Part shown: one piece after another, positions 225-7,304 of the stretch
Layout: each line of letters starts with the position of its first letter
Position numbering within the stretch: the first letter of the stretch is position 1
Virus record (IMG/VR): IMGVR_UViG_3300047200_000376
Span: 1-22,643 of that record
Direction: 5' to 3' (one strand)
Origin: a virus
Length of the DNA: 22,643 nucleotides
Translations under genes and position numbers: made by a program
Notes under the pieces: model-generated
The model's input: the letters and a program-made list of their open reading frames with translations, nothing else
Database searches by the model: none
What the model was told of the DNA's origin: nothing

Positions 225-2048
225 TTAAGGAAGGATGGTAATTGTCCCACGGATAATTAACCCAGCATCACCTGAGATTACACCAGATGAAATTAAAGCG
301 GGTGTTGCACCTGAAGGAGCCGTGAATACACCAGAAACACCAGTGATGTTACTAAACCTTCCCGCATCACCTGTGATTACAGCGCCTGAGACCTGAGTCG
401 TATAAACACCAGAGACAAAATTAGCAGTAGTACCCGTGACCGTAACACCTGTGATTGTGGTGAAGGCACCGGATACTCCTGTAACTGTTGTAAATTGTGC
501 CGTGGTACCGGTAATGGTTTGACCACTGATGGTACCAGTGACTGAAACACCAGAGCCAAAAAACCCTGAACCACTGACCGTCAGGTTTCCTGAGATTGTG
601 GTGTTACTAAAAACAATGTTAGTAAAATTACCACTGGTTGCATTGACCGTGGTTACATTTAACGTGGTGCCACTAATTGTTGTACCAGTAACTGAAGTGA
701 ATCCAGCGGTACCGCCTGTAAGAGTTGTAAACTGAGCCGTATTACCGGTGATGGTTGCACCAGAGATACTGGTAACAAAGACCGCAGCAAGGCCAGTTAG
801 GTTACTAAACAGTCCCGTATTACCCGTAACAGTTAAACCGGAGACAACAGTTGTAAAAGTACCAGTGGCGCCGGTGACCGTTGTAGCAAGAACCGCATTA
901 CCGGTAATAGTTGCCCCACTAACACTAGTTGTGAAAACACCGGTTCCTCCCGTTACGGTGGTAAACCTGCCTGTGTTTCCTGTAACTACAACACCAGAAA
1001 CAACATCAGTAAAGATGCCGGAAACACCAGTAACAGATGCAAGTCTTGCAATGTCTCCAGTAATTGTGGTACCAGACAGGACTGTGTAAACACCAGAAAC
1101 ACCTGTGATATTACTAAATAATCCAATGTTTCCCGTGATGGTTGCACCAGAGATAAGCTGTGTGTAGATACCAGAGAGTGCAGTCACTCCCCCAAAAGAA
1201 CCCGAATCACCGGTAATTGTTGCACCCGATAACCTTGTAGTGAATGTACCGGAAACACCTGTGGTATTGGCAGCTCTTACGGTGTCTCCGCTAATAATTG
1301 CACCGCTTAATAACGTAGTAAATACACCCGTAACACCTGTAACACTAGTTGCGCGAACCGTTGTTCCAGTAATTGTGGTACCTGAGAATGTACCCGTGGC
1401 ATTAACAGTGGATGCAAATTGAGCGGCGCCAGAAACAATCAGTCCGCTTTCAACGGTTAGGTTGCCGCTAACAACAAGAACAGGAGTGGCGAGTGTTGTA
1501 AAAATACCTGAGGTTGCTTGGACGGTTGTGCCAGTAATTGTTACACCGCTTAACGCATTAAAAACACCTGATGTACCAGAGATATTGTTGCCGGTAATTG
1601 TTGCACCACTTAGGCGTGTAGAAAAATTACCGGTGATTGCATTGACAGTTGTACCCGTAAAAGTCGTAGCCGTAACCGTTACACCATTGATGGCGGTACC
1701 TTGTATGGTATTACCAGTAATTGTGGTACCACTGATCGTTCCACTGACAGTCGCGTTGTTCTGGACAATTAAGCCGCTGACAGATGCCTGATTACTAACT
1801 GTTAAACCAGAGGTGGTTGCTAAGCCTGAAACACTAAGGTTCCCACTAATTGATGTATTACCACTAATGGTGCCCCCCGTGCGGGGAAGGTAGTAAATAT
1901 TAAGATATTCTTTAGTTCCTGAGATGGTAATCTTTTTATTTTTTAACGCCGGGTCAACTTCAAAAACATGCACAATAGTAAAAAGATCCTGCTCGGCGAC
2001 GTCAATGCCAGCAAGTTCTTGTAAATCGCTAATGCGCCTGTTGGCCAT
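225..2048 (-). CDS. Repeat-rich tail fibre protein, 607 aa
   Basis: Residues 1-56 form a non-repetitive N-terminal domain (starts MANRRISDLQELAG, with VEQDLFTIVHV-like and KKITISGTKEYL-like strands). It resembles N-termini I associate with T4-like cyanophage fibres and may attach the fibre to the virion. From about residue 60 to the end the protein consists of Ser/Gly/Thr/Val repeats of the form (V)SGATITGN...VTGVSGVFTT. In the middle they recur with a period of about 26 residues and have almost no charge or Cys. Such repeats suggest a trimeric beta-solenoid shaft. There is no obvious globular receptor-binding tip: the C-terminus ends in a short non-repeat stretch (GLIIRGTITILP). ATG at 2046-2048 is chosen because the conserved-looking N-terminus starts there and a TATAAT-like box lies about 30 bases upstream. 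Fibre identity is likely; the receptor cannot be read. Confidence 0.85.
   Translation of the reverse strand: MANRRISDLQELAGIDVAEQDLFTIVHVFEVDPALKNKKITISGTKEYLNIYYLPRTGGTISGNTSISGNLSVSGLATTSGLTVSNQASVSGLIVQNNATVSGTISGTTITGNTIQGTAINGVTVTATTFTGTTVNAITGNFSTRLSGATITGNNISGTSGVFNALSGVTITGTTVQATSGIFTTLATPVLVVSGNLTVESGLIVSGAAQFASTVNATGTFSGTTITGTTVRATSVTGVTGVFTTLLSGAIISGDTVRAANTTGVSGTFTTRLSGATITGDSGSFGGVTALSGIYTQLISGATITGNIGLFSNITGVSGVYTVLSGTTITGDIARLASVTGVSGIFTDVVSGVVVTGNTGRFTTVTGGTGVFTTSVSGATITGNAVLATTVTGATGTFTTVVSGLTVTGNTGLFSNLTGLAAVFVTSISGATITGNTAQFTTLTGGTAGFTSVTGTTISGTTLNVTTVNATSGNFTNIVFSNTTISGNLTVSGSGFFGSGVSVTGTISGQTITGTTAQFTTVTGVSGAFTTITGVTVTGTTANFVSGVYTTQVSGAVITGDAGRFSNITGVSGVFTAPSGATPALISSGVISGDAGLIIRGTITILP
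740..1340 (-). repeat. Degenerate in-frame tandem repeats of about 78 bp in the fibre gene
   Basis: On the plus strand, phrases such as 'gtaattgttgcacc', 'acaccagaaacacc' and 'ttactaaa' recur about every 78 bases. They encode successive 26-residue units of the type GNTGRFTTVTG-GTGVFTT-SVSGATIT. Copies differ at many positions, so this is an old, protein-level repeat and not a fresh microsatellite. The edges given are approximate; weaker repeats continue on both sides, to about 300 and 1870. Confidence 0.75.
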
Positions 2049-3345: not shown

Positions 3346-3728
3346 AAAAACGTGAACAGTTAATTGCTTCAGTTATCGGTCCAGACCTGGATCCAACTAA
3401 GGCCAAGATGCTTGATGCCACCATTAAGCTGATTCTTGGTGACATGGGGCAACAATATTTCAAGATGTGGGAACACGAGGGTCCTGGCATCATGGTGTTC
3501 CAGCCTGAGAATAAAGAACGCTCTATGTTCTTTTTGACTTTGAAGGAAATTCACTCAGCACAGGAAGAGTGTGAACGCAGTAATGACGGTGATTTGGCTG
3601 AAACTTTCCGTCGTATTCTCCAGGCTGCACAAAAGATTGATCCCACTGAAAAGGCGGGTTATATCATTAACGATGCACAGGGCATTCGCTATTTGGAAAT
3701 AGACTATAACAAGGCGGCTGAGAAATAA
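3342..3728 (+). CDS. Unknown protein, 128 aa
   Basis: Not recognised. The protein is soluble, of mixed alpha/beta composition and without Cys pairs, signal or membrane segments. Visible landmarks are LDATIKLILGDMGQQYFKMW (residues 24-43), GIMVFQPENKERSMFFLTL (residues 49-67) and a C-terminal strand region GYIINDAQGIRYLEIDY. It starts inside the preceding stop (ATGA) and ends in TAATG with the next gene, so it belongs to the same coupled operon as the helix-turn-helix and Dam-like proteins. The tight coupling suggests a stoichiometric or functional link with these neighbours. No function is offered. Confidence 0.6.
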   Translation: MKKREQLIASVIGPDLDPTKAKMLDATIKLILGDMGQQYFKMWEHEGPGIMVFQPENKERSMFFLTLKEIHSAQEECERSNDGDLAETFRRILQAAQKIDPTEKAGYIINDAQGIRYLEIDYNKAAEK

Positions 3729-4315
3729 TGCCTATTCATGACATTCGTAGTCGCAAAGAAGATCTTGAGTTAATCACCAACTATGACTTAATAGCTTCTG
3801 CGCATGCCTTGTTGAATGGCATTGAACTTGATGTTGCTAGTTCTAAGGTTGCCAATGAGTATGTCGAAGCGGAAAAGTTTTTTACTCCGTTAGATGACGG
3901 ATTAAATGCTCAGCAGTGGTACGGACGTGTTTATTTATTTCCCCCAGGGGGAGCATATTTCCGTGACAAAAAGAACGATAGGTGGAAGATGACCAGGGCT
4001 TCATCTCCAACCTTGGTATCTTCTCATGCTGTTTGGTTTAGAAAGTTGTATCGCTCATGGTTTAACCGTGAAGTTGAGCAAGGTTTGTACTTTACCAACT
4101 GTCCGGACATGATTCGATACGAACAAAAACTGTTTGACTTCCCTGTCTGTATCTTAAAAACTGCACCAACATTAATCAAAAACACCAGTCAGGGCATTGA
4201 CAAACACAAGACTTGTACTTCGTTCTTGGTCTACTTGCCACCAATGGATGATCCAGGGAATGCGGTTCAAAAATTTATTGATATTTACGGGGAAAAGGGT
4301 CGGATTCTCTGCTAG
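3728..4315 (+). CDS. Dam-like DNA N6-adenine methyltransferase homologue with altered catalytic motif
   Basis: The region GIELDVASSKVANEYVEAEK (residues 31-50), followed by FFTPLDDGL (51-59) and W..RVYLFPPGGAYF (64-78), follows the layout of phage Dam-type adenine methyltransferases. That family has fDlDvAas..N...., then yT..dDGL, W.g..flNPPYs. Here the catalytic (D/N)PP(Y/F) is FPPG (71-74), with no acid or amide and no aromatic residue at the usual places. The later LYFTNCPDMIR and CTSFLVYLPP strands also fit the family. The length (195 aa) is near that of phage relatives. The overlap with the upstream gene is TAATG. It may be a dead or repurposed enzyme, such as a DNA-binding decoy, or it may use different chemistry. 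The family call rests on motif order only. Confidence 0.6.
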   Translation: MPIHDIRSRKEDLELITNYDLIASAHALLNGIELDVASSKVANEYVEAEKFFTPLDDGLNAQQWYGRVYLFPPGGAYFRDKKNDRWKMTRASSPTLVSSHAVWFRKLYRSWFNREVEQGLYFTNCPDMIRYEQKLFDFPVCILKTAPTLIKNTSQGIDKHKTCTSFLVYLPPMDDPGNAVQKFIDIYGEKGRILC

Positions 4316-5590: not shown

Positions 5591-5630
5591 GATAGTATTG
5601 TAATTGAGAAAATTTAAGTCGTATATAGTT

Positions 5631-6002
5631 ATGCACGGCGCTGCAGGATTCTTAGATAGTTTTGTTGAAGACGAAGTCAAGTGCCGTTGCCTTGACGAAG
5701 ATATGTTTGGTGCACCTCTCGATAACGAGGAAAATGATGTACCCTTGTATGACATGTACAACAGGGGCTTAGCAGCATGCGAGCAAGGAATGGAGCGGAC
5801 GAATCTCGGGTTGGAGGGGAATCCAGCGTTGCAGGAACAGAGGCCGGGGATGACCGGTTACATCCCATCGATGGAGGAAGCACTGGAGCAGTATCCAGGG
5901 GCCGCACCCAAGCCCAAGACATTGATGATCTCTCTACCGTCAGCGGACACTATGGAGCAGGAACAACTGCTGTCAAGGAAGCGCCGTGGTTTGAGCCGGT
6001 AG
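5631..6002 (+). CDS. Unknown protein, 123 aa, overlapping the DUF3310 gene
   Basis: Starts at ATG 5631 (MHGAAGFLDSFVEDEVKCRC). The in-frame TTG at 5604 would add nine residues and lies in the divergent spacer, so it is less likely. Residues 1-50 are acidic and look like genuine coding sequence. Residues 50-123 include MTGYIPSMEEALEQYPG and a basic end (SRKRRGLSR), and come from a visibly more G+C-rich stretch shared, in another frame, with the next gene over 226 bases. No family is recognised. Either both frames are translated, or the true gene ends earlier by a frameshift into DUF3310; I see no classical slippery heptamer. Confidence 0.5.
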   Translation: MHGAAGFLDSFVEDEVKCRCLDEDMFGAPLDNEENDVPLYDMYNRGLAACEQGMERTNLGLEGNPALQEQRPGMTGYIPSMEEALEQYPGAAPKPKTLMISLPSADTMEQEQLLSRKRRGLSR

Positions 6003-6286
6003 TAGACAACGGTTGTAAAGATGGGGTTTGTCCAGTTCCATGGGCAACAAAACCTTACCGTCCTGAACTAAAACTTGATTTTGTCAATCATCCACCCCAT
6101 TATACGGACGGCGGAATTGAATGCATCGAGGCTATTGAAGCGCAGTTAACCACTGAAGAATACCGTGGGTATCTAAAAGGGAATTGTGCCAAGTATATTT
6201 GGCGTGAGCGCCATAAAGGCGGGACAGAATCACTGAAGAAGGCACGTTTTTATCTTGATCGTCTGATCGAACTTGGTGATATTTAA
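5777..6286 (+). CDS. DUF3310 family protein, 169 aa as opened
   Basis: Residues 103-166 match the phage DUF3310 ('SaV-like', often annotated nucleotide kinase) pattern: VNHPPHYTDGGIECIEAIEA, a middle part with GNCAKYIWRERHKGG, then ESLKKARFYLDRLI. The biochemical role of the family is not established. Upstream are a Cys pair (NGCKDGVCPVPW, residues 78-89) and 70 residues of low-complexity Gly/Ser/Ala/Asp that overlap another ORF. ATG 5777 has a plausible AGGGG nine bases upstream, inside the previous gene, and there is no later ATG before the conserved domain. The stop overlaps that of the convergent NblA-like gene (shared TTAA at 6283-6286). The domain call is strong; the N-terminus is doubtful. 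Confidence 0.75.
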   Translation: MRARNGADESRVGGESSVAGTEAGDDRLHPIDGGSTGAVSRGRTQAQDIDDLSTVSGHYGAGTTAVKEAPWFEPVVDNGCKDGVCPVPWATKPYRPELKLDFVNHPPHYTDGGIECIEAIEAQLTTEEYRGYLKGNCAKYIWRERHKGGTESLKKARFYLDRLIELGDI

Positions 6287-6585
6287 AAAGGAACGCCCTC
6301 TTCGTCATCATCATCCTCGTCGTCGTATACACATGCGGCGGCGAGTTCTGATAGCTCTAAATCCGTTGGTACATCAAAGTCAAGCTTGATGTTTTCATTC
6401 TCCAAGATATCCTTGACCGCATGCCATTCCATCAAACGTTGATGGTAGAGGTTTAAAAGGGCAGAGTACAGCTGATCCCATGTCATTTCTTGAGCTTCAA
6501 GCTCTGCTTTGCGCATGGCAAATTGAAGTTCTAAAGGCAGTTCAAACTCCCTGGGTTCAGATGAGCGTTCCATCCCTGTATTCAT
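6283..6585 (-). CDS. Divergent NblA-like (phycobilisome degradation) protein with acidic tail
   Basis: NblA proteins are about 60 aa helical hairpins that mark phycobilisomes for proteolysis by host Clp, and several cyanophages carry them. Here residues 14-63 fit that fold and pattern. FELPLELQF corresponds to the family's 'LSLEQQF', EMTWDQLYSALLNLYHQRL to 'MSxEQAQxxLxxLYxQMM', and E53-K58-L61 to the 'E..YK.LL' end. Unlike typical NblA it has a C-terminal extension of about 37 residues ending in an acidic run (DDEDDDDEEGVPF), plus a 13-residue N-terminal addition that a start at the second Met (6573) would shorten. It lies just downstream of the endolysin gene on the same strand. The call rests on motif reading, so it is probable, not certain. 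The alternative is an unrelated helical-hairpin protein. Confidence 0.6.
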   Translation of the reverse strand: MNTGMERSSEPREFELPLELQFAMRKAELEAQEMTWDQLYSALLNLYHQRLMEWHAVKDILENENIKLDFDVPTDLELSELAAACVYDDEDDDDEEGVPF

Positions 6586-6603: not shown

Positions 6604-7269
6604 CTAGGACCAGCTGTTAAATAAAGAATCTAGCTCATCAGAAGGATAATCGACCCAATCGGCATCATCAGTGCGAAAAGCGTTGGCAAATTCCGACAAC
6701 ACATACGGACTGATTCGTTCTTCCAGCTGCCTAATTGCCTGTACCTGCTTAGGTGCTGCTGTGTAGTTGCGAAAAGCAGCAAGCAAAATATCTGTAAGAA
6801 AAGAAGGGGTAGCATCTACTTCCTGGAGGAACAGATTTACTTCTTCTCGTCTGCGATCTAGAAGGCTACCAATGGCTCGATGCTCTTCATCAAAGATCCA
6901 GCGAACAATTTCTTCTGTTGCTGCGGCTAAATCTTCGTGTTCAATGCAATCAATTACACGACTGTAAAGAAATGCTTCCCAGCCTACTGAATGAATAAAC
7001 GAAATCAATGCTTGGCGCATGCAGTCGTCTAGACCAATGTTTAACTTGGAGAGCTGACCATCAATGACATTGATTTCATGAAACAGATATTCCAGCGCTT
7101 TTTCTTTACTGCAGTATTGCCCTTTTTTTACTGGCGCACCATCTGGATAAAATTGCGTGCCATATCCAAACGTGTAAGGTTCTCCGCCAGTTAAAAGATT
7201 GGCATAAGCTTTTTCATTAAACCCTTCGTATTTACGAATGAGATTAATTGCATACGAAAAATCTGCCAT
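6604..7269 (-). CDS. Endolysin, GH24 lysozyme family, 221 aa
   Basis: The muramidase cleaves the peptidoglycan glycan backbone at lysis. The N-terminal motif IRKYEGF (catalytic Glu15), then KAYANLLTGGEPYTFGYGTQ (residues 20-39), match the phage lysozyme pattern E-8-D-5-T-[IF]GYG; Thr33 is present. The usual Asp of AYxD is Asn24. Later GH24 signatures are QALISFIHSVGWEAFLYSRV and SLLDRRREEVNLFL. No signal or SAR helix is visible, so a holin would be needed. About 60 extra C-terminal residues (FRNYTAAPKQ..., acidic end) have no clear domain. ATG 7267-7269 (MADFSYAI) is taken; an in-frame TTG eight codons upstream lies within an inverted repeat. There is no Shine-Dalgarno sequence, and a perfect hairpin abuts the ATG. 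Confidence 0.85.
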   Translation of the reverse strand: MADFSYAINLIRKYEGFNEKAYANLLTGGEPYTFGYGTQFYPDGAPVKKGQYCSKEKALEYLFHEINVIDGQLSKLNIGLDDCMRQALISFIHSVGWEAFLYSRVIDCIEHEDLAAATEEIVRWIFDEEHRAIGSLLDRRREEVNLFLQEVDATPSFLTDILLAAFRNYTAAPKQVQAIRQLEERISPYVLSEFANAFRTDDADWVDYPSDELDSLFNSWS

Positions 7270-7291
7270 GGGAGTAACTACTGTTACTCCC
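7270..7291 (-). promoter_or_regulatory. Perfect hairpin abutting the endolysin start codon
   Basis: On the minus strand GGGAGTAAC (7283-7291) and GTTACTCCC (7270-7278) form a 9-bp perfect stem with a 4-base loop, and the next base is the A of ATG. The GGGAG that could pair with 16S rRNA lies in the 5' arm. Folding would both hide it and place it beside the start, so translational control is plausible. Confidence 0.55.
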
Positions 7292-7304
7292 AATCATACA
7301 CAAA

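Follow-up and report, generated by a model that had tools for sequence, protein, structure and literature searches.

Does a viral gene that resembles nblA, and whose product ends in an acidic tail, still serve to degrade the light-harvesting antenna of cyanobacteria, or has its product acquired another target? The question is raised by a locus in the IMG/VR virus record IMGVR_UViG_3300047200_000376, whose entire 22,643-nucleotide stretch is called the window here. The open reading frame concerned (6283..6585, minus strand; ATG start; 100 aa) had been described in an initial annotation as encoding an NblA-like antenna-degradation protein with an acidic extension. The frame is real, it is kept in relatives from IMG/VR and in Synechococcus phage S-EIV1 (AHV82245), and the description of its sequence proved accurate; Met5, at which several relatives begin, may be the true start. 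A marine phage NblA was reportedly described by Nadel et al. in 2019. Cyanophage nblA genes are already known from Ma-LMM01, MaMV-DC, PaV-LD, and marine cyanophages, according to PMC9602691. A survey of cyanophage genus-level groups recorded nblA in other groups and not in the S-EIV1 group, for whose environmental genomes hli and ptoX were listed (PMC5332604).

We regard the homology of residues 14-63 (6397..6546, minus strand) to NblA as settled by the sequence comparisons. In hmmscan the window protein matched the Pfam NblA model (PF04485) over aa 15-63 and profile positions 1-49 of 50 (E 2.7e-4), with 21.8 bits, which lies under the curated cut-off of 25 bits. The family set comprised 99 unique proteins and the diverse alignment 40 members, all of which match PF04485 at E ≤1 (best 2.8e-6); one of the 10 members scanned singly (L341) rose above the cut-off with 26.3 bits. 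Comparison of the phage-family profile with that of 14 NblAs gave a single gapless match of 50 columns with 32% identity (E ~1e-7), and the hhalign score of 42.4 compares with at most 15.0 for 30 column-permuted phage alignments and 10.3 for the reversed one. The reciprocal search, which returns NblA genes, is strong evidence: the top matches of the phage-family profile in 386 cyanobacterial genomes (E 2e-6 to 1e-3) were mostly genes also found by the NblA family model. Anabaena NblA (1ojh) was matched in the PDB by phmmer (E 0.005) and came first in a profile search (E 9e-4), in which another NblA, 3cs5, was listed weakly. Weak PDB matches to HRD1 were rejected as largely due to the acidic tract, and weak matches to Pfam PHF12_MRG_bd and DUF4030 were rejected as lying under their cut-offs. 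Homology of this kind does not settle whether the protein belongs among the functional NblAs.

The predicted structure agrees with this assignment. As the initial annotation expected of an NblA, the AlphaFold2 monomer is an antiparallel helix-loop-helix of the type that defines the NblA superfamily, with helices at 18-32 and 36-63/64 and a mean pLDDT of 91.1 in the core (73.5 for the full model), and its hairpin loop sits at the M-[ST] position at which the phage family and NblA align. With the full and core models as queries, neither Foldseek nor VIA-align yielded a useful match, not even to NblA chains, short hairpins being poor queries.

The family is widespread among cyanobacterial viruses. 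One scan of IMG/VR yielded relatives in 412 stretches and another in at least 589, and further, more distant members were reached from S-EIV1 and sister-clade queries. Because it recurs in hundreds of IMG/VR stretches and in S-EIV1, the family is not a product of chance. When 50,697 phage records were searched by tblastn with the window protein, S-EIV1 was the only match, through a relative annotated as "hypothetical protein" (AHV82245) with 69% identity over aa 5-85; a tblastn search of phages with a known NblA sequence as query gave no match, and a pattern scan of a bacterial genome collection found no relative.

NblA is a small protein that delivers the light-harvesting antenna of the host to the host's protease. 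Its N-terminal part has been reported to bind ClpC and its C-terminal part phycobiliproteins (PMC4103541). The resemblance of the phage family to NblA is uneven between these two ends, with consensus identities of 10/18 in the N-terminal segment, 6/19 in the middle, and 1/17 in the C-terminal segment. Judged by alignment, the N-terminal motif at aa 14-31 (FELPLELQFAMRKAELEA; 6493..6546, minus strand), which matches the reported ClpC-binding side, is kept in the phage family, and the motif on the phycobiliprotein side is not. Leu51 and Lys53 of Anabaena NblA, which we take to be involved in phycobilisome binding, correspond by alignment to I/L60 and A/E62 of the phage proteins. The retained motif suggests that the phage protein may dock on ClpC. 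Of the function first proposed, therefore, the relationship to NblA stands, and antenna degradation is not borne out by the C-terminal segment or by the NCBIfam NblA equivalog model NF045916, which did not match the window protein and, with its cut-off at 100 bits, scored a sister-clade member (L377) at 13.1.

Beyond the hairpin, all members carry a conserved extension from residue 64 (DxPTDLELxEL, an acidic run, and usually a C-terminal Pro-Phe). Its first part, aa 64-87 (6325..6396, minus strand), reads ENIxxDxDxPTDLELxELAAxC in the family, with E64, D71, P73, T74, E77, and L81 invariant in the 40 diverse members, and a third helix (75-87) is predicted in it at low confidence. The run of nine acidic residues that had been pointed out, DDEDDDDEE at aa 88-96 (6298..6324, minus strand), is present and predicted to be disordered, and is followed by the tip GVPF at aa 97-100 (6286..6297, minus strand); the pLDDT of aa 92-100 is below 50. 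The cellular NblAs compared measure ~55-69 aa, whereas the phage protein has 100, and the tail indeed exceeds the usual NblA length: none of ~45 cellular NblAs sampled has a similar extension, all of them stopping at most ~20 residues past the domain and without an acidic tail. No cellular source of the extension was found in the 386 cyanobacterial genomes, where the profile gave NblA genes as the only credible matches. The phage protein thus shares with cyanobacterial NblA (PF04485; Anabaena 1ojh, 3cs5) a gapless stretch of 50 residues, the helix-loop-helix, and the N-terminal motif, and differs from it in having the conserved extension and acidic Pro-Phe tail in place of the C-terminal phycobiliprotein-binding segment. 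With Ma-LMM01, PaV-LD, marine cyanophages, and S-SCSM1 (ORF237) it shares the presence of an NblA-family gene in a cyanophage, but the S-SCSM1 protein has 54 aa and lacks the extension, and nblA of Ma-LMM01 overlaps nrdA and is early (PMC4103541), whereas the window gene lies behind an endolysin. The S-SCSM1 protein itself (L475:19952-20116) shows little visible similarity to NblA and was assigned by a remote-homology search in its source paper. In the literature consulted, which covered papers other than that on the S-EIV1 genome, we found neither such an extension nor an NblA with an SSB-like tip reported.

The SSB-like end of the tail is the most telling feature of the protein. A Pro-Phe end after 5-15 acidic residues occurs in 91 of the 99 unique proteins; in the S-EIV1 group a short linker separates the acidic run from the tip. 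The most frequent ending is E-L-Q-P-F, and position -4, an acid in SSB, is mostly Leu. None of ~5,900 other unique ORFs from the same loci ends in an acidic stretch and Pro-Phe, and among the S-EIV1 ORFs with 60 or more codons only three end in Pro-Phe, namely those of the NblA-like protein, of SSB, and one without an annotated counterpart. The tip codons vary synonymously (Pro: CCT 40, CCG 37, CCC 13, CCA 1; Phe: TTC 56, TTT 35), and selection therefore acts on the protein. The stop of a convergent gene lies over the L-Q codons in 44 cases, about half of the variants, and overlaps only the last bases (offset -3) in 42 unique cases, which include L431 of the non-Pro-Phe set. Pro-Phe is found in both overlap geometries and also without overlap (L070, L332); we accordingly rejected the idea that the overlapping gene forces it, given this independence and the synonymous variation of both codons. 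A sister clade shares core and extension and lacks Pro-Phe, ending in TKSFL, NCFL, SFAV, and similar sequences; the core, whatever its function, therefore does not require the tip.

The acidic tip of Escherichia coli SSB (MDFDDDIPF) recruits more than 17 partner proteins, and its final Pro and Phe occupy a hydrophobic pocket of RecO (PMC7913777). The tail of the NblA-like protein has the SSB-Ct pattern of acidic residues, C-terminal Pro-Phe, and predicted disorder, a combination common to the phages' own and to host-type SSBs: cyanobacterial SSBs in our sample end in DDIPF, DEVPF, or DEIPF, and the phages' own SSB of ~270 aa ends, for example, in LDEIPF, FDEVPF, LEEAPF, or EELPF. One related phage SSB ends in DDDNQPF, matching the QPF common in the NblA-like family. 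Unlike SSB, the NblA-like protein has no OB fold, its tip is placed on an NblA hairpin, and the commonest ending is LQPF rather than DIPF; that it is itself the SSB of the phage was rejected, as it has no PF00436 match and a helical model, and the phages have separate SSB genes. By analogy with E. coli SSB, the tip may bind the pocket by which partner proteins hold SSB. Both genes were seen in one sister-clade phage, whose SSB ends in CFQLF and whose NblA-like protein lacks Pro-Phe too, and a closely related SSB on a different contig has the end DDNEHF, likewise without Pro-Phe; this joint loss, known from one or two related phages, is suggestive only. These two close SSBs (L450, L451) differ in that one stops at DDNEHF and the other continues to CFQLF, and their acidic tip may be lost or masked by read-through. 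A second SSB-like ORF of 118 aa ending in NTNDEVAF stands beside the usual 275-aa SSB in L379 (the 95-kb contig of L355).

The gene lies immediately behind an endolysin gene (phage lysozyme, PF00959, E 2.2e-15; 6604..7293, minus strand), 18 bp away, as the initial annotation had remarked, and this position is kept in 94 of the 95 unique variants with enough flank, mostly with a gap of 18-36 bp. The short gap suggests co-transcription of the two genes, and late expression is plausible from position alone. Downstream, a convergent DUF3310 gene (5777..6286, plus strand; PF11753, E 5e-18), the stop of which overlaps that of the NblA-like gene, is present in 90 of the 95 variants. This gene overlaps another window ORF (5604-6002, plus strand) by ~225 bp in a different frame, and both frames are likewise long and open in the sister-clade loci L372, L376, and L377; S-EIV1 has two separate genes at the corresponding place, and the pair could reflect dual coding, a wrong start, or a frameshift fusion. 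Elsewhere in the window, 225-2048 (minus strand) encodes a 607-aa protein that consists mostly of degenerate SGxxITG-type repeats and is probably a fibre or adhesin, and 3728-4315 (plus strand) encodes a partial DNA-methyltransferase-like protein (PHROG 111, E 1.3e-8, aa 17-106), adjoining a dCTP deaminase.

Because the ClpC side is kept, the phycobiliprotein side is lost, and the Pro-Phe end is both conserved and uncommon, we favor, at a probability of roughly 40%, the reading that the protein is a Clp adaptor of the NblA type whose target arm has changed and bears an SSB-like docking tip. Its hairpins would pair as in NblA, where they form a homodimeric four-helix bundle, and the conserved N-terminal motif would dock on the host ClpC unfoldase. 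In place of the phycobiliprotein-binding end the protein has a new segment followed by a flexible acidic arm with Pro-Phe at its end, and that arm would enter the pocket by which host or phage proteins hold the C-terminal tip of SSB. A protein that partners SSB, either by itself or in addition to phycobilisome proteins, would then be delivered to ClpCP or kept off SSB, any effect on phycobilisomes being presumptive; the adaptor may have a new or an additional target and, to judge from the 18-bp gap, is probably made together with the endolysin. That the tip serves such a re-aimed adaptor as bait, capturing host repair or replication proteins in order to feed them to ClpCP or keep them off SSB, we consider unlikely. 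Against an SSB-tip adaptor, the common tip is ELQPF and not DDIPF, roughly half of the variants have the convergent stop over its L-Q codons, the sister clade lacks Pro-Phe, and the phages already own an SSB with such a tip. The antenna-degrading NblA with an extra tail of the initial annotation remains the main rival, although we find it somewhat doubtful. Such an ordinary phage NblA would bind both phycobilisomes and ClpC, leading to antenna degradation, and its tail would tune solubility, dimerization, or its own co-degradation by Clp; NblA homology and the Synechococcus host of S-EIV1 speak for it, as do other phage NblAs that bleach cells when expressed (PMC9602691). However, conservation is lacking in the segment that corresponds to the phycobiliprotein-binding side, the extension is absent from the known phage and cellular NblAs compared, and a two-residue end fixed in 91 of the 99 variants is unexpected for a mere solubility tail.

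The match between the tip and that of the phage's own SSB, together with the absence of Pro-Phe from both genes in the one sister-clade phage showing both, would also fit a role in replication without any part for Clp. The NblA hairpin would have been co-opted to serve as a dimer scaffold, with the tip to tether it to the phage polymerase, the primase, or host repair proteins, or compete with SSB for them. We think this improbable, as the NblA N-terminal motif is the best-kept segment, the gene adjoins the endolysin and not replication genes, and the co-loss is known from one or two related phages. In the SspB adaptor, a flexible arm carries a short conserved end peptide that docks on the unfoldase. 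The structured core, disordered arm, and conserved terminal tip of the phage protein recall this arrangement, and its tail could be a protease-docking tether, with the hairpin recognizing the substrate. Against this, the tip resembles SSB-Ct and is not known to resemble the docking peptide of SspB. A tether of this kind would suit the fact that NblA is a Clp adaptor (PMC7966870), but NblA's own ClpC-binding motif is conserved here, and we give this explanation less credence still.

If the protein is an adaptor with a changed target arm, a widespread cyanophage group would carry an adaptor previously unlisted for the S-EIV1 group, and a protease adaptor that imitates the SSB tip would offer a simple means of redirecting host proteolysis, with the direct prediction that the target is decided by the final two residues. 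Should the protein do no more than degrade phycobilisomes, the S-EIV1 group would still gain antenna degradation, and its extension would raise the question of how NblA activity is tuned.
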